In this document: in pieces, positions 8,146 to 63,264 of the stretch
Layout: every line of letters starts with the position of its first letter
Numbering within the stretch: position 1 is the stretch's first letter
Source: Flavobacteriaceae bacterium
GTDB taxonomy: Bacteria; Bacteroidota; Bacteroidia; Flavobacteriales; Flavobacteriaceae
Length of the DNA: 64,000 bases
Reading direction: 5' to 3'
Assembly (NCBI GenBank): GCA_947453885.1
Contig: CANGIF010000009.1
Span: forward strand, 1 to 64,000
Made by a program: the position numbers and the translations under genes
Notes under the pieces: generated by a model
Told to the model about the DNA's origin: nothing
Database searches by the model: none
What the model saw: the letters and a program-made list of their open reading frames with translations, nothing else

Positions 8146-10029
8146 ATGGAAAAAGAGCAAACATTTGGAGAGTTTATAAAGAACTATTCTTTCGTAATAC
8201 CTGATTATCAACGCGCTTATTCTTGGGGAGAAAAACAGTTAAATCCATTTATCAATGACATTTTAGAACATTGCGATGAAAATGATAACCCTACTGATGA
8301 TACAAGATATTATCTTGGTCATTATATTCTTGAAAAGACAAATTATGATATAGCAAATTTACTTTCAGAAGAAGAATATATTCGAATTAAAAATGAGGGG
8401 TTTTCAATCTCATGCGATAAATTTGAAATTATTGACGGGCAACAGAGAATAACTACAGTATACTTGTTCCTGATGGTATGCGGATATAAAAAAAATAAAA
8501 ACTATATAAAAGATATTAGTTTTAAACCTGTTTCTTATGATTTAGAAGGTTTAGAAAAAATTAAAGCGATTCTAGAAGCCAATGAATTTGTTAATAGCAA
8601 ATTAGAAGACCTTTTGACTTCTGAAAAAACAATGTCGTTAGCAAGAATGGTTATGGCAGTTCAACTTTTTATAGATGCTTTTGAAGGTAAAATTCAAAAG
8701 TTAGATGTTAATAATATTGAAAAGTACGTGAAAGTAATTTATGATGCTTATTGCTCTCTTGCTTTATTTCAAGACAAGGCAGTAGCTTCCCAAATTTTCG
8801 AATTACACAATACTCGTGGAATTGCTTTGTCTGAAACAGAGAAAGTAAAATCTTTGTTGATGAAAAGTGTATATTTAAATTCACCAACTCCTGATACTGA
8901 TATTGAAAAAATTCAAGAAGCTTTTGCTTCTGTTTTTAAAATGGAAGAAAAAGTTAGTGAAAATTGGTTGCGTGGAGATATGCCTTTAGATACGGTACTA
9001 ATGTATCATTTACGAGCTGTAGAAGATGGTAAAAAAGATAATAATTTCAATTCTCCTAATTCAATTTCAGGTGAAAATGGTTCTTTTGAATATGTTCGAA
9101 AAGCAATCGCTTTAAAAGGTAATAATAAAAATCAAATTATAGAATATTCAAAAGATCTTGCGTTTGAATTGACCAAGACAATGAATATTTTAGTAAATGA
9201 AATTCCTGAAGCCGATAAAATAAATCATCTTATTGGAGATGTTTTACTATTAGATAAAAACAGAAGTATGCTATTTTTGTTACGTAGTTTCAGAATTGGA
9301 AATCCAAATGAAAATAATTTAATAGAGCGTTGGGAGAATTTTCTTTTATGTTATGAAATAATATATAACCGATATTATTATAATGCTAAAGCAAGTAGGG
9401 AAAATTTTGAAAGTATTTATAAATCTATTTCACCTGATTCTGATTTGAACGATTGCAATAATTTATTGATTAAATATTATAAAAATGAACAAGGTTTTTC
9501 ATACCATTGGGAGCATTTAGGGGAAAATGCAAAAAAACTATTTGATGAGGATAAGAATAAGTGGATACATTATGCTTATGGCTGGGAAAAGACAGCTTAT
9601 TTTCTATACAAATATGAAATTGGAAATAAAGGAGATTTAAAAAAAATTAGAGAAACTATTTTTAAGGGTAATACCGTTTCAATAGACCACATTGTTGCAA
9701 GAGGAATTGAATGGAAAGATTTAGGATTCGAGAATTATCCAAAAGAAAAAAAAGAGGAAGCAGATATAATTTGGAATAAAATCACAGAAGTAATAAATGG
9801 TATTGGGAATCTTTCTTTATCTACTGCAAGTGCTAATTCTTCTGATTCAAATAATCTGCCAAGCGAACATACTATCTCATATGAAAAATTTGGATTATTA
9901 AACACCGTTCAAGAAATAAATACTTGGAATGAACCAATTGATTTTGCTGATAGAATTGCTGATAGAACAAAAAACATAAGGAATTTTATTTCCAAAAGCA
10001 TTATCAACAGAAATGATATTTGGGAATAA
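8146..10029 (+). CDS. DUF262/DUF1524 (GmrSD-like) protein, putative type IV restriction / defence nuclease
   Basis: N-term FVIPDYQRAYSWGEKQLNPFINDI..., DGQQRITTVYLFL (DUF262 motif); C-term VSIDHIVARG...IGNLSLSTASANSSDSN (DUF1524 HNH-like). Confidence 0.88.
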   Translation: MEKEQTFGEFIKNYSFVIPDYQRAYSWGEKQLNPFINDILEHCDENDNPTDDTRYYLGHYILEKTNYDIANLLSEEEYIRIKNEGFSISCDKFEIIDGQQRITTVYLFLMVCGYKKNKNYIKDISFKPVSYDLEGLEKIKAILEANEFVNSKLEDLLTSEKTMSLARMVMAVQLFIDAFEGKIQKLDVNNIEKYVKVIYDAYCSLALFQDKAVASQIFELHNTRGIALSETEKVKSLLMKSVYLNSPTPDTDIEKIQEAFASVFKMEEKVSENWLRGDMPLDTVLMYHLRAVEDGKKDNNFNSPNSISGENGSFEYVRKAIALKGNNKNQIIEYSKDLAFELTKTMNILVNEIPEADKINHLIGDVLLLDKNRSMLFLLRSFRIGNPNENNLIERWENFLLCYEIIYNRYYYNAKASRENFESIYKSISPDSDLNDCNNLLIKYYKNEQGFSYHWEHLGENAKKLFDEDKNKWIHYAYGWEKTAYFLYKYEIGNKGDLKKIRETIFKGNTVSIDHIVARGIEWKDLGFENYPKEKKEEADIIWNKITEVINGIGNLSLSTASANSSDSNNLPSEHTISYEKFGLLNTVQEINTWNEPIDFADRIADRTKNIRNFISKSIINRNDIWE

Positions 10030-52791: not shown

Positions 52792-52826
52792 CCATTAGTC
52801 TACACTTTTCTACCATTGGTCTATAC
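52792..52826 (+). promoter_or_regulatory. 21-bp-phased direct repeat CCATTRGTCTAYAC x2 upstream of the NO-sensor cluster
   Basis: CCATTAGTCTACAC at 52792 and CCATTGGTCTATAC at 52813 (12/14 identical, 21-bp offset). Confidence 0.55.
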
Positions 52827-52908
52827 TAAATAGGTGTTAAACGAAAAGTATTGAGTAAAGAGCCAACTATAATCTAGTTTTGAGTTTGGATAATTATACA
52901 TATACAAC

Positions 52909-53322
52909 ATGCCTAGATCATTAAACATATTATTCATAGAAGACGACGCAATTGAGGTGATGAAATTCAATAGAGTGCTAACTACATTGAAAATGAACCA
53001 CAAAATTATCGAAGCCAATAATGGGGAAGAAGCTTTGGCAATTCTAAATGGAAAAGAAATCATTCCTGATATTATTTTCTTAGATCTGAATATGCCTCGC
53101 ATCAACGGCATTGAGTTTTTACAAATTTTAAAGAAAGACGATTATTTAAAATACATTCCTTCTATTATTTTAACTACTTCAAACAATCATAAAGATGTTA
53201 TGGAATGTTATAAAATTGGGATAGCAGGGTACATGTTAAAACCATTAAAGTATGATGAATACGTAGAACGCATCAAGAGAATGTTAGACTATTGGAGTTC
53301 AAATGAATTAATTTCTCAATAA
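52909..53322 (+). CDS. Single-domain (REC) response regulator
   Basis: LNILFIEDDAIEVMKFNRVLTTLK; IIFLDLNMPRINGIEFLQILK; ILTTSNNHKD; GYMLKPLKYDEY. Confidence 0.93.
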   Translation: MPRSLNILFIEDDAIEVMKFNRVLTTLKMNHKIIEANNGEEALAILNGKEIIPDIIFLDLNMPRINGIEFLQILKKDDYLKYIPSIILTTSNNHKDVMECYKIGIAGYMLKPLKYDEYVERIKRMLDYWSSNELISQ

Positions 53323-53329
53323 AAAAGTC

Positions 53330-53872
53330 ATGTACGGTATTGTCAATAAAGCTATTGAAGATTTAGTAATTGCAAATTTTGGAGAAGAAAAATGGGAAGC
53401 AATTAAAGATAGAAGCGGTATCGATATCGATTTTTTTATTAGTAGCGAGCCATACGATGATGACGTTACGTTTAAATTAGCAATAGCTGTTTCGCAAGAA
53501 ATGCACATGACTGTTGAAGAAGTTCTTATTGCTTTTGGCGAATGGTGGGTTATTAAAACTACCTCTGAAAAGTATACTGGATTAATGCAATCAGGCGGAA
53601 ATAACCTTAAAGAATTTTTACTAAATTTACCCAATTTTCACAATCGAGTGATGTTAATTTATCCAAAACTAACGCCTCCTGAATTTAAAGTAAGTGACGA
53701 AACTGAAAACAGTATACAGTTGCATTATTTTTCTAAACGACAGGGATTGCAAGAATTTGTGAGAGGATTAATTCAAGGATTGGGGAAAATGTACAATACA
53801 CCGGTCGTTATCAAATTAATGCAAACCCGAAACGAAGGAAGTAGTCACGAAATATTCAAAATAAGCTGGTAA
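53330..53872 (+). CDS. H-NOX (heme NO-binding, HNOB) protein
   Basis: MYGIVNKAIEDLVIANFGEEKWEAI; proximal His in LNLPNFHNRV; Y-x-S-x-R in LHYFSKRQGL. Confidence 0.95.
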   Translation: MYGIVNKAIEDLVIANFGEEKWEAIKDRSGIDIDFFISSEPYDDDVTFKLAIAVSQEMHMTVEEVLIAFGEWWVIKTTSEKYTGLMQSGGNNLKEFLLNLPNFHNRVMLIYPKLTPPEFKVSDETENSIQLHYFSKRQGLQEFVRGLIQGLGKMYNTPVVIKLMQTRNEGSSHEIFKISW

Positions 53873-53876
53873 AAAA

Positions 53877-56486
53877 ATGAATGGATTAGAATTTAAGTTT
53901 CAAGAAGAATCTTTTAATAAATTATTCCCTTATTTTATTCTAATCGACGCCACTTTTCAAATTCAAGGATTTGGAAAAAGTATAGCTAAAATTTGTCCTA
54001 CCTTAAAAAAAAGGGTTTCGTTTAAGGACTTTTTTGCACTTAAAAGACCACATGCAATTACCACTACTTTTCAAGAATTATTAGGTTTAAGTGGACAATT
54101 GATAATAATTGAAAGTACTCGCGATGGTATTTCACTAAGAGGGCAGTTCGAACTTCACAATGACCAATTGTTATTTGTAGGTTCACCTTGGTTCAACTCA
54201 ATGAACGAGGTTGTGAATATGAATTTGACATTAAACGATTTTGCTATTCATGACCCATTATTGGATTTATTACATGTACTAAAGAATCAAGAAATTTCGG
54301 AAAAAGAATTAAAGGAAACGCTAATTACAATAAACAAGCAAAGAAAAGATCTAAAAAAAGCAAATAAAGAAATTCATGATATTGCTTTGTTTCCCACCCA
54401 AAGCCCCGATCCATTACTTCGTATAGATTTTGAAGGTAATTTACTTAAAAGAAATCCTGCAGCAGAAACACTTTTATCCTTTATTTATGAAGGCAAGGAA
54501 TATGATGAAGAGACTTTTTTCAAAATTATTAGCAGTCAAATTGATGTAGACCAAGAGCGCTTTATTTTTGAAGCACAATCAGGATCTATTGATTATTCTT
54601 TTGTTTGTAAAAGCCTTAAAGAGGAAAAATACATCAACATTTATGGACGTGACATTACAGAACAGAAAAAGAACAGCGCAGAATTAGAAAGATTATCTCT
54701 AGTAGCCAGTTCGAATGAAAACGGAATTGTATTTACGTATCCAAATGGAATTGTATTTTGGTGTAATGATGCCTATACTTCCCTTACAGGTTATCCAAAA
54801 GAATTTATTATTGGCAAGACTCCAATAGAAATCGGTAAATGTGAGCCTACTAAAACCGAAGACCTTTCAAAAATGCTCACACCTTTTTATAGAGGAGAAC
54901 CATTTGAAATAGAGCTCTTTCATGGCAAAAAAGGCGGTGGTCATTTCTGGTCACGAATCAAAGGGCAACCCATTTTTGATGCGCAAGGTAATGTGAAGCA
55001 GTATTTTGCCATGCTCGAAGATATTTCTTTAAAAAAGAGATATGATGAAAGTTTAGAAATAGAAAAAAACAAATACCAGAATATTATTGCGAACATGAAT
55101 TTGGGCTTACTAGAAGTTGATTTAAATGATGTAATTACTTTATCTAACAATAGTTTTAGTGAAATAAGTGGTTATTCATCCGGAGAGTTGATTGGTAAAA
55201 AAGCAGCTGAATTATTGATGCCAACTGAAAGCCAACAAATTATGGATTCCAAAAACGAAATGCGTTCAAAAGGTGTTACCGATTCATACGAAATAAAAGT
55301 AGTCGATAAAAAAGGGAAAAAAAGAAGTTGGTTAATTAGTGGTGCCCCCAATTACGATCTTAATGGAAATATAATTGGTTCAATTGGAATACATTTAGAC
55401 ATTACGGATCAAAAAGCCCAAGAAGAACAATTATTAATGTTGTCACTTATCGCGGAAAAGAATATTAATTCTGTTGTAATTACTGATAAAGATGGATGTA
55501 TTGAATGGGTTAATACCAGTTTCTTAGAAATGTCAGGCTTTTCGATGGAGGAAATAATAAAAAAAAAACCAGGTCATTTATTACAAGGCGTTGAAACTAA
55601 TCCAGAAACTGTTGCTTATATAAAGGATCGTATCCAAAAAGGATTGCCTTTTAATTGCGAAATCATTAATTATTCAAAATCGGGCGAAAAATATTGGGTT
55701 AACATTCAAGGACAAGCGTTGTATAATAAGAATAACAAAATAGTTAAATTTTTTGCAATCGAGGAAAATATTACCAAGAAAAAAGAATACGAACAGCAGC
55801 GAGAGTTTTTATTGGATAGTTTAGCGAAAAGTAATAAAGAACTCGAAGATTATGCGGCCATAGTTTCACATGATTTAAAATCACCATTGCGGAGTATCCA
55901 TTCTTTAATTTCTTGGATTAAAGAAGATAATGATAAAGAATTTAATGACCAAACTTTGCAGTATCTAAGAATGATGGAAAACAAAGTTGAAAAAATGGAT
56001 CACTTAATAGAAGGAATTCTAACTTATTCCAAAATTGATAAAGCCAATATAGCACTTGAAAATGTAAATACTAATGAAATTATTCAAAATATCATCAATA
56101 TAATTCATATTCCACCACACATTTCTGTTGCTATAAAAACTGGTTTGCCAGTCATTAAAGCAGATCGTTTCAGAGTTCAACAATTATTTCAAAATATCAT
56201 CAGTAACGCTGTAAATTATATTGATAAACCAGTCGGAATCGTTGAAATTGCTTGTCAATCGTTGCCAAAACAGTATCTTTTTTCAATAAAAGATAACGGA
56301 CCAGGAATTGCTAAAGACAATCAAGAAAAAATATTTAAAATATTTCAGTCTTTGAGTTCAAGTGATAAATCAACCGGACTCGGACTTTCAATTGTAAAAA
56401 AAATAATCGACTTATACCAAGGTGAAATCTGGATTGAAAGTGAAATAGGTCAAGGAACCACTTTTTTTATAAAACTTAACAAATAA
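53877..56486 (+). CDS. H-NOX-associated sensor histidine kinase: N-terminal HNOBA-like region, multiple PAS domains, HisKA-HATPase
   Basis: FPYFILIDATFQIQGFGKSIAKICP...FKDFFALKRPHAITTTFQEL (HNOBA-like); PAS: FSEISGYSSGELIGKKAAELL, FLEMSGFSMEEIIKKKPGHLLQG; YAAIVSHDLKSPLRSI; DNGPGIAKDNQEKIF; GLGLSIVKKI. Confidence 0.93.
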   Translation: MNGLEFKFQEESFNKLFPYFILIDATFQIQGFGKSIAKICPTLKKRVSFKDFFALKRPHAITTTFQELLGLSGQLIIIESTRDGISLRGQFELHNDQLLFVGSPWFNSMNEVVNMNLTLNDFAIHDPLLDLLHVLKNQEISEKELKETLITINKQRKDLKKANKEIHDIALFPTQSPDPLLRIDFEGNLLKRNPAAETLLSFIYEGKEYDEETFFKIISSQIDVDQERFIFEAQSGSIDYSFVCKSLKEEKYINIYGRDITEQKKNSAELERLSLVASSNENGIVFTYPNGIVFWCNDAYTSLTGYPKEFIIGKTPIEIGKCEPTKTEDLSKMLTPFYRGEPFEIELFHGKKGGGHFWSRIKGQPIFDAQGNVKQYFAMLEDISLKKRYDESLEIEKNKYQNIIANMNLGLLEVDLNDVITLSNNSFSEISGYSSGELIGKKAAELLMPTESQQIMDSKNEMRSKGVTDSYEIKVVDKKGKKRSWLISGAPNYDLNGNIIGSIGIHLDITDQKAQEEQLLMLSLIAEKNINSVVITDKDGCIEWVNTSFLEMSGFSMEEIIKKKPGHLLQGVETNPETVAYIKDRIQKGLPFNCEIINYSKSGEKYWVNIQGQALYNKNNKIVKFFAIEENITKKKEYEQQREFLLDSLAKSNKELEDYAAIVSHDLKSPLRSIHSLISWIKEDNDKEFNDQTLQYLRMMENKVEKMDHLIEGILTYSKIDKANIALENVNTNEIIQNIINIIHIPPHISVAIKTGLPVIKADRFRVQQLFQNIISNAVNYIDKPVGIVEIACQSLPKQYLFSIKDNGPGIAKDNQEKIFKIFQSLSSSDKSTGLGLSIVKKIIDLYQGEIWIESEIGQGTTFFIKLNK

Positions 56487-56497
56487 ATTTTTGATCA

Positions 56498-57631
56498 ATG
56501 AAAATAGTTCAAGCTTCAAAATTGGAAAACCAGCCTTGGAAATTCATGCAAGAAAATACAGTATTGCATAATCCTTTGGTTTTAATTTTTGCTAATCGGT
56601 TTTTATTAGAACAAGAGGAAGTCATTTCGGATATTCGCAAGCAATTTCCTTACGATCATCTTGTTTTTGGCTCCACTTCGGGTGAAATTATGTGTTGTCA
56701 TGTCAATGAAAATTCTATTTCGGTTACCGCAATCGAATTTGAGAAAAGTAGTTTTGAAGTCATTACCGAAAATATTTTAAATTTCGATAAAAAGGCAAAA
56801 CCACTTGGAGAAGCGTTATATGCTAAAATACCAAAAACCAATTTAAAGCATTTATTTGTTTTATCTGAAGGAAGTTTCGTTAACGGTAGTTCATTGATTG
56901 ACGGCCTTGAAAATCAACTATCCGATGCTATATCTATTACAGGCGGAATGTGTGGAGATGATACCCGATTCTTAAAAACATTGGCGTCGTATAAAGAAAA
57001 TCCAAAAGAAGGGGAAGTCATTCTAATTGGATTTTATGGAGAATCGCTTGAAATCACTTTTGCTAGTTTTGGAGGTTGGATTCCTTTTGGTCCTGAACGT
57101 AAAATCACTAGATCTAAAGCCAATATTCTTTTTGAAATTGATGATCAACCTGCACTTGATTTATATAAAAATTATTTGGGTGAAAAATCCAGCGAATTGC
57201 CTCAAGCGTCTTTATTATATCCATTGAATGTTACTCCTGAAGGCAAAAATGAGCCAGTTGTTCGGACTATTCTTAGCATCAATGACGATACTAATTCAAT
57301 GGTGCTTGCTGGAGATGTTCCAGTAAATTCAAAAGTACAACTCATGATGGCTTCTGTAGATGGAATAGCCGCTGGTGCGCAACATGCCGCAGAAATCGCT
57401 ATGGAAAACAGAAAATCACCACCCCAAATAGCCTTACTGGTAAGTTGTATCGGAAGAAAATTGGTTATGAATCAAAGAGTCGAAGAAGAAATTGAAAATG
57501 TTCAGGAAATCATAGGAAAACAAACTGCCATTACAGGTTTTTATTCGTATGGTGAAATGGCACCTATTAACGGTCATAAGTCTTGTGAATTACACAATCA
57601 AACGATGACTTTAACATTAATTAGCGAATAA
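56498..57631 (+). CDS. FIST N/C-domain protein, candidate NosP-type sensor
   Basis: HLVFGSTSGEIMCCHVNENSISVTAIEF; ISITGGMCGDDTRF; C-term TAITGFYSYGEMAPINGHKSCELHNQTMTLTLISE (FIST_C). Confidence 0.9.
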   Translation: MKIVQASKLENQPWKFMQENTVLHNPLVLIFANRFLLEQEEVISDIRKQFPYDHLVFGSTSGEIMCCHVNENSISVTAIEFEKSSFEVITENILNFDKKAKPLGEALYAKIPKTNLKHLFVLSEGSFVNGSSLIDGLENQLSDAISITGGMCGDDTRFLKTLASYKENPKEGEVILIGFYGESLEITFASFGGWIPFGPERKITRSKANILFEIDDQPALDLYKNYLGEKSSELPQASLLYPLNVTPEGKNEPVVRTILSINDDTNSMVLAGDVPVNSKVQLMMASVDGIAAGAQHAAEIAMENRKSPPQIALLVSCIGRKLVMNQRVEEEIENVQEIIGKQTAITGFYSYGEMAPINGHKSCELHNQTMTLTLISE

Positions 57632-58656
57632 TGAACTCTTTATTAAAAAGACAAATTGCGAAACATTTAGATACAGGACTCAATAATATTGACTTGTTTT
57701 TTAAAGCTGTTGACAATTCTTATGAAAATTATGAGGAGCAAATTGCCATGTTACAACGCGCTATGAAAATTAGTTCCGATGAACTGTATGCTGCCAACCA
57801 AAAACTAAGAGAAGAAGCAGAAAGCTTGAAAGATATCAATAGAAATCTACAATCAATACTAAATTCAATGAATCTAGATGCAACAAAATTTTCAAATACC
57901 GATACACTCAAATCTTCTGAGTACATCAAACAACAAGCTGTTGAAATAATTAAAATTAACAAGCAAAGAGAAGAATTGTTAGTTAACCTTGAAAAACAAA
58001 ACCAAGCGTTGAACGAATATGCACACATGGTTTCGCACGATTTAAAAGCACCATTACGAAGTATTGACACTTTAATTAATTGGTTTATTGAAGATAATGA
58101 ACCAATGATGAATGTAGATAATAAAAAAACATTGCAAACAATTTTATCTAATGTTGAAAAAATGGATTTGTTGATTAAAGGCATTTTGGTATATTCTTCA
58201 GTAGAAAACCAAGAAGTGGAAGACCGGACAATTGATTTAAACATTTTAATTGATGAGGTAGTTCGTACGTTACATGTTCCCAATCACATTAAATTGACCG
58301 TGAACAATACATTACCTAAAGTTTTTGGAAACCAATATCGTTTCAAACAGTTGTTTCAAAATCTGATTCAGAATGCAATAAAATACAACGATAAAGTAGC
58401 AGGAACAATTGCAATTGGAAGTTCTGAAAACGAAACAGCTATACAGTTTTATATCAAAGACAACGGTATTGGAATAGCTGAAAAATACCAAGATAAGATT
58501 TTTAATGTTTTTTCTAAACTTCAAAACAACGATCCTTCATCAGGAATTGGACTTTCAATTGTCAAAAAAATAATTGACTTATATAAAGGCAAAATTTGGT
58601 TAGAAAGCCAAGAAAATAGTGGTACTACATTTTATTTTACAATACCCAAAAACTAA
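57631..58656 (+). CDS. Soluble sensor histidine kinase (coiled coil + HisKA-HATPase)
   Basis: YAHMVSHDLKAPLRSI; DNGIGIAEKYQDKIF; GIGLSIVKKIIDLYKGKIWLES; no TM or PAS seen; stop/start overlap with the FIST gene. Confidence 0.93.
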   Translation: MNSLLKRQIAKHLDTGLNNIDLFFKAVDNSYENYEEQIAMLQRAMKISSDELYAANQKLREEAESLKDINRNLQSILNSMNLDATKFSNTDTLKSSEYIKQQAVEIIKINKQREELLVNLEKQNQALNEYAHMVSHDLKAPLRSIDTLINWFIEDNEPMMNVDNKKTLQTILSNVEKMDLLIKGILVYSSVENQEVEDRTIDLNILIDEVVRTLHVPNHIKLTVNNTLPKVFGNQYRFKQLFQNLIQNAIKYNDKVAGTIAIGSSENETAIQFYIKDNGIGIAEKYQDKIFNVFSKLQNNDPSSGIGLSIVKKIIDLYKGKIWLESQENSGTTFYFTIPKN

Positions 58657-58973
58657 TGGAACAACCTAATAACAATTACATCATTCAGTTAGCTGGCGAC
58701 AATCTTGAATTCAAATCAAAAATGATTGCAATTTTGAAGAAAGAATTGCCCGAGGAGATTGAAAATTATCATAAGCAGCTTTTAAATAATGACCTACTTG
58801 AAGCAGCACAATGCGTTCATAAATTAAAACACAAAATTTCTATTCTTGGTCTTGAAAAAAGTTATTATATTGCTGAACAATTTGAAGCGCATTTAAATAA
58901 CAAAAATACTGTTTTGCAATCTGACTTTGAAGCTATTTTAAAAGTGATGTTGCAGTTTGTTCGGGAATTATAA
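58656..58973 (+). CDS. Histidine phosphotransfer (Hpt) protein
   Basis: LLEAAQCVHKLKHKISILGLEKSYYIAEQFE; position between kinase and regulator; start overlaps the kinase stop. Confidence 0.85.
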   Translation: MEQPNNNYIIQLAGDNLEFKSKMIAILKKELPEEIENYHKQLLNNDLLEAAQCVHKLKHKISILGLEKSYYIAEQFEAHLNNKNTVLQSDFEAILKVMLQFVREL

Positions 58974-58987
58974 TTTTAAGCTAAGAT

Positions 58988-59701
58988 ATGAATTGCATTA
59001 TTATTGACGACGAAGAATTGGCAAGAGCTATTATAGGACAAATGATTGAAAGAAGTCCTCAATTGAAGTTATTACAAGTGTTTTCAAATGCAATGCAAGC
59101 TATCAAATTCTTAAATCAAAATGAAGTTGATTTAATTTTTCTCGACATTCACATGCCAGATTTTACAGGTTTCGATTTTATTCAATCCATTAAAAATCCA
59201 CCCAAAGTAATTTTAGTTACTGCCGATAGAAACTTCGCCATCGAAGCTTTCGAATACGAGTGCATTGTAGATTATTTAGTAAAACCCATAACTGAAGATC
59301 GCTTTCTTAAGTCCGTTCAAAAAGCCAATTCTAAGCAGTTAATCGATAGTAGTACAATTTCAGATAAAGAGGCAGCAGAGGAAGACAATGCAAACGAATT
59401 TTACATCAATATCGACCGTCGTTTAATCAAAATAGAATTTGCATTAGTCAACATTGTAGAAGCCAAAGGTGATTATATTCACATAAAAACCGAAGGAAAA
59501 AACTACATTGTGCATTCAACACTTAAAAAAATTGAAGACAAATTGCCTAAAGATTTGTTTTTAAAAGTACACCGTTCCTTTATTATCAATACCAAAAAAA
59601 TCATTGATATAGAAGATAATACAGTCTTAATTGACAAAGAAGTAATTCCGGTAAGTCGTGCCAATCGCCCCGAATTGATGAAACGCTTGAATTTGCTCTA
59701 A
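58988..59701 (+). CDS. LytTR-family response regulator
   Basis: MNCIIIDDEELARAIIGQMI; LIFLDIHMPDFTGFDFI; FLKVHRSFIINTKKIIDIEDNTVLIDKEVIPVSRANRPELMKRL. Confidence 0.94.
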   Translation: MNCIIIDDEELARAIIGQMIERSPQLKLLQVFSNAMQAIKFLNQNEVDLIFLDIHMPDFTGFDFIQSIKNPPKVILVTADRNFAIEAFEYECIVDYLVKPITEDRFLKSVQKANSKQLIDSSTISDKEAAEEDNANEFYINIDRRLIKIEFALVNIVEAKGDYIHIKTEGKNYIVHSTLKKIEDKLPKDLFLKVHRSFIINTKKIIDIEDNTVLIDKEVIPVSRANRPELMKRLNLL

Positions 59702-59895
59702 TTTATTCGTCAGCATACTTTACAACAACTTAAATTTCCATTACGATGATCTTTCCTGCCTTGGGAAGGTTGTTTTTATTGATAAATAAATTTTTAAAAG
59801 CATTTTTTAAATTACCTTAAATTCAATAAATACTAACGATTAAGTAAATTGTAAAATCATTTAAAGTAGCCTTCTTTGGTTGTGTTTGCTACCTT

Positions 59896-62508: not shown

Positions 62509-63264
62509 TTAATTATCCAACCATTTTTTAAAATCAGTAACGCGATCTCGGCTTACAATTCGGGTATCATTATCCAGAAACTTTGTAGCAATAGACAAAC
62601 GGCTATTGAAATACGTATTCACTTTTTCAATAGAATGAATATTTAGAATTATTTTTCTATTGATTCGGAAAAAGTTTTTGGGTTGCAACATCGTTTCCAA
62701 CTGATCTAAGGTGTAATCGATGAGGTAATTATTGCCTTTGTTGGTTACTAAAAAAGACAAACTTTCTTTGGTTTCAAAATGATGAACGTCTTCAACGGGA
62801 ATGGTAGCTATGGTTTGTCCTAATTTGACTAAAAAACGGGTTTTGTATTCTTTGTTTATTTGTTGATATGCGTTTGTAATACTAGAAATCAAGTCTTTAT
62901 TTGCGGACTGTTGTTGTTTTTTAAATTTATCAATTGCAAATTGTAAATCTTGTAAATCAATGGGTTTTAATAAATAATCAATACTATTTTGTTTGAAAGC
63001 TTGAATAGCATACTTGTCATAAGCAGTAGTAAAAATAACTGGAATTTCTAGTTGTATTTGGTTGAAAATTTCAAAACTATTGCCATCAGCCAAATGAATA
63101 TCCATAAAGATTAAATCGGCTTGCAGTCCTTGTTTGAAAGCCGCTACAGAAGCAGTAATGGTATCAAAATAGTGACCAACTACTATTGATGCATCCATTT
63201 TTTGCAACAGAACAGTGAGATGTTCTGCCGAAAGTTTTTCGTCTTCTATAATTATAACCTTCAT
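62509..63264 (-). CDS. LytTR-family response regulator
   Basis: MKVIIIEDEKLSAEHLTVLLQKM; LIFMDIHLADGNSFEIF; FFRINRKIILNIHSIEKVNTYFNSRLSIAT. Confidence 0.94.
   Translation of the reverse strand: MKVIIIEDEKLSAEHLTVLLQKMDASIVVGHYFDTITASVAAFKQGLQADLIFMDIHLADGNSFEIFNQIQLEIPVIFTTAYDKYAIQAFKQNSIDYLLKPIDLQDLQFAIDKFKKQQQSANKDLISSITNAYQQINKEYKTRFLVKLGQTIATIPVEDVHHFETKESLSFLVTNKGNNYLIDYTLDQLETMLQPKNFFRINRKIILNIHSIEKVNTYFNSRLSIATKFLDNDTRIVSRDRVTDFKKWLDN

Follow-up and report, generated by a model that had tools for sequence, protein, structure and literature searches.

The locus occupies positions 52909-59701 of the window, the whole 64,000-nucleotide stretch of Flavobacteriaceae DNA analysed here, and contains seven genes on the forward strand. 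It begins with a 137-aa REC-only response regulator (52909-53322; Pfam Response_reg, 3e-22) whose phospho-acceptor is D59, followed by a 180-aa H-NOX protein (53330-53872; HNOB, 3e-50) with the proximal His104, Y133-S135-R137 and W73. Kinase 1 (53877-56486) is an 869-aa protein with the Pfam architecture HNOBA-PAS-PAS-PAS-HisKA-HATPase_c, HNOBA covering residues 8-82. A soluble 377-aa FIST/FIST_C protein (56498-57631; Pfam FIST, 7e-39, and FIST_C, 1e-35) is the second candidate sensor, and its gene overlaps by 1 nt that of kinase 2 (57631-58656), a 341-aa protein in which an N-terminal region (residues ~1-115) precedes Pfam HisKA and HATPase_c domains, with H136. The last two genes encode a 105-aa Hpt phosphotransfer protein (58656-58973; Pfam Hpt, 6e-7; H55) and a 237-aa LytTR-type response regulator (58988-59701; Pfam Response_reg and LytTR, 8e-20; D53), the proposed DNA-binding output. 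The starts and strand of the ORFs and their Pfam domains agree with the first-pass annotation, which had described seven co-directional genes, and the gaps between them range from -1 to +14 nt. A weak terminator-like hairpin lies 3' of the operon (59745-59774, forward strand), in a region where such sites do not exceed the number expected by chance. A second gene for a REC-LytTR regulator lies on the reverse strand close to the window's end (62509-63264).

Judged by its heme-pocket residues, the H-NOX protein looks like an intact NO sensor. It aligns over its full length, end to end, with Nostoc Alr2278, and its HNOB match covers model positions 1-162 of 163. The heme motifs reported in the first-pass annotation hold up: H104 and YFSKR are in register with the Nostoc protein, which has YQSTR, and H104 is kept in 73 of 74 H-NOX homologues. 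This H-NOX is the only one found in the assembly (95.8% complete). The kinase 1 gene adjoins that of H-NOX, and the HNOBA domain of the kinase scores 74 bits against a Pfam cut-off of 23. That the two proteins work as a pair, as had been proposed, is supported by the decay of HNOBA where H-NOX has been lost or has itself decayed. Flavobacterium operons with H-NOX give HNOBA scores of 172-228 bits, compared with 173, 155, 155, 146, 93, 86 and 0 bits in operons lacking it. Arg occupies position 57 of HNOBA in 69 of 71 kinases where the locus has H-NOX but in 0 of the 6 where it does not; the two exceptions are a kinase with Lys and the kinase of locus L139. This joint decay, including the loss of R57, connects kinase 1 with H-NOX and speaks against a partnership between FIST and HNOBA. 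In L139, the H-NOX (gene at 9346) has lost its proximal His (H104I), Y133 and S135, and its partner kinase lacks the HNOBA Arg57.

The FIST protein shares with NosP the FIST and FIST_C domains and a gene position beside a soluble kinase. It scores 56 bits against the NosP equivalog model NF041558 and is not filed as a NosP here because this lies below the curated cut-off of 450 bits. None of the 346 sampled Bacteroidota genomes passes that cut-off, the best score being 327 bits, and plasmid FIST proteins, searched for a bona fide NosP with which to compare heme residues, scored 50-95 bits. Conserved C317, Y223 and H366 are candidate heme-ligand residues only. An AlphaFold model (pLDDT 92.6) has human FBXO22 as its closest solved fold in a fold search, and comparing the sequence with solved structures gave nothing meaningful. 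Within the same relay, FIST may sense heme or another small ligand instead of NO, with the operon integrating NO and a second cue. The low NosP score here and across sampled Bacteroidota fits this view, as do the persistence of FIST arms without H-NOX, the occurrence of stand-alone FIST arms, and the description of Burkholderia thailandensis NosP as heme-responsive (PMC13259868), while the recurrent linkage to H-NOX suggests related cues and the NosP-type FIST proteins described in the literature use heme to bind NO (PMC12570481). We consider this reading of the ligand evenly balanced; it is compatible with the explanation of the operon preferred below, and the balance concerns the ligand alone. 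NO sensing by the FIST protein has slightly less than an even chance of being correct.

FIST and kinase 2 are always jointly present or jointly absent in these operons, which agrees with the earlier proposal that FIST is the likely input of kinase 2. The accompanying statement that kinase 2 has no sensor domain of its own does not stand, given its conserved N-terminal region of ~115 aa. All 59 matches to this region lie beside FIST, so kinase 2 has a likely input region; an Azospirillum kinase linked to FIST matches it too. The same assembly contains a second FIST gene on contig 5 (L104), adjoining a PAS-HK-REC-Hpt kinase, and its product is without His366.

Comparative analysis covered 63 H-NOX loci from GTDB genomes and about 50 further stretches from sampled genomes, in which all nearby ORFs were assigned by profile. 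The full seven-gene order occurs in 30 Flavobacterium loci, the window included, and in two loci beyond that genus, L177 from another genus of the family and L176 from another family of the class; with related loci and some genomes present twice, these counts and the motif counts below do not equal independent events. Such recurrence of one order, in 29 other Flavobacterium loci as well as L177 and L176, argues against a chance arrangement. In L176 and L177, kinase 1 starts with a coiled-coil/PAS region and HNOBA is unrecognisable, yet the gene order is kept. A genome survey for H-NOX and FIST in one operon, suggested in the first-pass annotation, found their co-location to be recurrent: in the genus sample, 18 of the 31 genomes bearing H-NOX have FIST no more than about 3.5 kb away from it, and in the phylum sample 11 of 26 do. 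One H-NOX group was already known to have FIST genes close to hnox (PMC8738867). Recurring upstream neighbours, namely a HemN-type radical SAM protein with a cyclase and a GNAT protein with YjbR, were judged ordinary. One record titled Candidatus Nitrotoga (L082) carries a Flavobacterium-type operon on a contig matching one of the same-genus genome G126, and probably represents contamination or mislabelling.

Each arm of the operon has been gained or lost separately. The order REC-HK1-FIST-HK2-Hpt-LytTR, without H-NOX, is found at five loci, and at a further two H-NOX and LytTR are both missing; no H-NOX match was found anywhere in the seven genomes of these operons. The opposite form, REC-H-NOX-HK1-Hpt-LytTR without FIST and HK2, is found at 11-12 loci, depending on whether L048 is counted. 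On a tree of Hpt and LytTR, H-NOX presence changes at least two times and FIST presence about five times, and a H-NOX remnant with many stops is still visible between REC and kinase 1 in one locus (L109:6093-6455, reverse strand). L048 was considered as a recent natural loss of FIST-HK2 and rejected, its 208-nt junction being GC-rich and looking like an assembly join.

Because REC-Hpt-LytTR persists whichever arm is absent, this pattern favours two inputs feeding one shared relay. Hpt and LytTR remain beside kinase 1 where FIST and kinase 2 are absent, H-NOX-less loci keep REC, and one locus (L083) has REC fused to Hpt, all of which speaks against two separate pathways sharing a transcript, with kinase 1 signalling to a stand-alone REC and kinase 2 through Hpt to LytTR. 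Such a division would suit the adjacency of REC to H-NOX and of Hpt to kinase 2, and it has a parallel in Legionella hnox2, which adjoins a kinase and a CheY-like REC (PMC11237717), but we regard it as rather unlikely. The shared relay was part of the first-pass topology and is retained here, whereas its convergence on Hpt, with a split to REC-only and DNA-binding outputs, is not.

In His-Asp chemistry, kinases normally hand phosphate to Asp first. For this reason, and because REC-Hpt and HK-REC-Hpt fusions exist, the most likely place of REC is after the kinases and before Hpt, giving the order HK > REC > Hpt > LytTR. The fusion protein of L083 is located between the H-NOX kinase and the LytTR regulator, and other H-NOX or FIST kinases, including that of the second FIST system in this assembly, end C-terminally in REC-Hpt. 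The acceptor set expected of a His-Asp-His-Asp relay is intact and conserved, comprising H136 of kinase 2, D59 (conserved in 44 REC orthologues), H55 (in 48 Hpt orthologues) and D53. We infer the direction of phosphotransfer from these fusions and from His-Asp chemistry.

Alignment of the promoters shows two copies of TTCGTCTACAC with starts 21 bp apart, lying ~110 nt before the operon in most loci. In the window, the predicted LytTR site (52795-52826, forward strand) consists of the half-sites TTAGTCTACAC (52795-52805) and TTGGTCTATAC (52816-52826), 21 bp from start to start, and is followed on the same strand by a degenerate third repeat, TTAAACGAAAA (52837-52847), and by a predicted sigma-A -7 box, TAGTTTTG (52875-52882; consensus TAnnTTTG), 48 nt past the motif. 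It is the only motif match in the window, against a chance expectation of 0.00. Orthologous operons place the motif nearly always at -109 to -117 from REC. A TAnnTTTG box, known as the sigma A -7 box in F. psychrophilum (PMC9723704), lies 47-48 nt past the motif at 18 REC promoters and at 8 further promoters with the motif; F. psychrophilum is itself among the species that have the operon (L068). A site scoring 15 or more precedes REC in 24 of the 30 seven-gene loci, compared with 40 of 2000 random windows (2%). Most H-NOX loci without FIST have no clear motif. Because the motif was first seen in these operon promoters, its independent support comes from sites elsewhere. Scanning 2.22 Mb at 17 or more of 22 matches gave 74 sites versus 10 in a reversed-letter control, some genomes being present twice, and an earlier scan of 2.04 Mb gave 64 versus 1 in shuffled sequence. 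Half-site pairs number 26 at offset 21 and at most one at any other offset up to 60.

LytTR sites consist of two repeats of 9-11 nt with 11-13 nt between them (PMC4847170), and LytTR regulators often bind their own promoters (PMC6193735). The 21-bp period of the motif corresponds to a 9-10 nt core and an 11-12 nt spacer, which fits this architecture. Since both the architecture and the own-promoter location match known LytTR regulators, the LytTR protein is the obvious reader of the motif, an assignment that we infer from architecture and synteny. The motif could instead belong to another regulator, with LytTR acting elsewhere; its tie to LytTR is by synteny only, and two loci (L126 and L127) keep the motif with no LytTR gene adjacent. 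However, the two direct repeats with a 21-bp period are those of a LytTR site (PMC4847170, PMC6193735) and the motif stands in the operon's own promoter in most loci, so we regard another reader as improbable, more so than separate pathways.

Binding by LytTR being preferred, the genes that follow the motif in relatives indicate what the relay may control. In G231 and G061, a polysaccharide cluster lies directly 3' of the operon and includes a flippase, a Wzy/ligase, glycosyltransferases and a UDP-sugar dehydrogenase, with the motif before a Wzc-like gene and further genes of the cluster. The motif is also found upstream of genes for T9SS-secreted surface proteins beside LytTR (L046, L048, L050, L058 and L081), glycosyltransferases (L133, L190 and L193) and small STAS proteins, and, in another genus, before an isolated FIST-HK2 pair (L182). 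The kinds of gene that it precedes suggest an output in surface polysaccharide, so that the relay probably controls exopolysaccharide, surface and biofilm state. In this strain, no motif-bearing target besides the operon was found in the window or in the 20 kb beyond the operon. A DUF4114 search of this genome returned 0 matches, with the search controls silent as well. NirK, NosZ and Hcp likewise gave no match in the 95.8%-complete assembly, which thus offers no evident source of endogenous NO; of its two COX1-family matches, one is a cbb3 oxidase.

Taken as a whole, the explanation that we regard as reasonably probable is a phosphorelay operon with two inputs, conserved in Flavobacterium and in some further Bacteroidota, with a LytTR site and a surface output. 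H-NOX would bind NO and control kinase 1 via HNOBA, and FIST would bind its ligand, with NO via heme or heme itself as leading candidates, and control kinase 2 via the N-terminal region. Both kinases would phosphorylate the small REC, from which phosphate would pass through Hpt to LytTR. Phospho-LytTR would then bind the two repeats just upstream of the core promoter and activate its own operon; in relatives, it may also activate neighbouring exopolysaccharide genes, glycosyltransferases (response-regulator fusions included) and T9SS surface proteins. The sequences themselves show the gene content and its conservation, the gain and loss of each arm, the joint decay of H-NOX and HNOBA, and the motif with its constant spacing and the genes behind it. 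The direction of phosphotransfer, the nature of the ligands, LytTR binding to the motif, activation as opposed to repression, and targets beyond the operon in this strain are the conjectural elements of this scheme.

Most of what is known about H-NOX and NosP signalling comes from Proteobacteria, in which c-di-GMP usually acts as the intermediary. The operon described here belongs to a different lineage and places H-NOX and FIST together, apparently connecting them to surface polysaccharide by way of a relay and a predicted binding site. Spo0F-Spo0B-Spo0A is a split phosphorelay in which a separate REC and a phosphotransferase stand between the kinases and a DNA-binding regulator; the present operon differs from it in having a canonical Hpt instead of Spo0B, LytTR instead of Spo0A, and unrelated inputs. 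Further related systems are those of Vibrio, H-NOX/HqsK > LuxU > LuxO in V. harveyi and NosP/VpsS > LuxU in V. cholerae (PMC3759921, PMC11237717), in which an NO sensor similarly controls a soluble kinase feeding a shared Hpt and a DNA-binding regulator. Unlike the present operon, which holds both sensors and ends in LytTR, those systems use hybrid kinases, have the two sensors in different species, and act through LuxO. Legionella pneumophila also has H-NOX and NosP in one genome, including an hnox2-kinase-REC operon (PMC11237717), but in separate operons and with c-di-GMP enzymes as the known outputs. The NosP-NosK-NosR system of Burkholderia pseudomallei likewise has a FIST gene beside a kinase without a recognised sensor domain (PMC12570481), although its output is a degenerate HD-GYP protein and the curated cut-off excludes the present FIST from NosP. 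The published genome neighbourhoods of H-NOX group 1 neither dissect the operon nor give a relay order, a binding site or targets. No description of the seven-gene arrangement, the binding site or the apparent slime output was found in the open literature searched; the parts are already known, and the arrangement and the regulon site are apparently undescribed. Natural losses of H-NOX or FIST lend themselves to comparison, and the predicted site opens the regulon to direct tests.

In L190 and L193, the motif also precedes genes for fusions of a receiver domain to a family-2 glycosyltransferase (L190:7073-8248, reverse strand; L193:15171-16349, forward strand). A sugar transferase controlled by phosphorylation would be unusual. 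As a tentative extension, which we consider doubtful, LytTR would govern transcription of matrix and surface genes while the receiver-glycosyltransferase fusions would put polysaccharide synthesis under direct phosphorylation control, linking two soluble sensors to exopolysaccharide through a single NO-responsive relay. Receiver-glycosyltransferase fusions also occur near the operon in L126 (12253-13422, reverse strand), L188, L191 and L194. Additionally, FIST systems that stand alone and include a sigma-54 regulator lie before genes of the Wza and Wzz types; at L124:7934-16937 and similar loci, FIST, the sigma-54 regulator and an HK-REC-Hpt kinase lie directly upstream of polysaccharide export genes.
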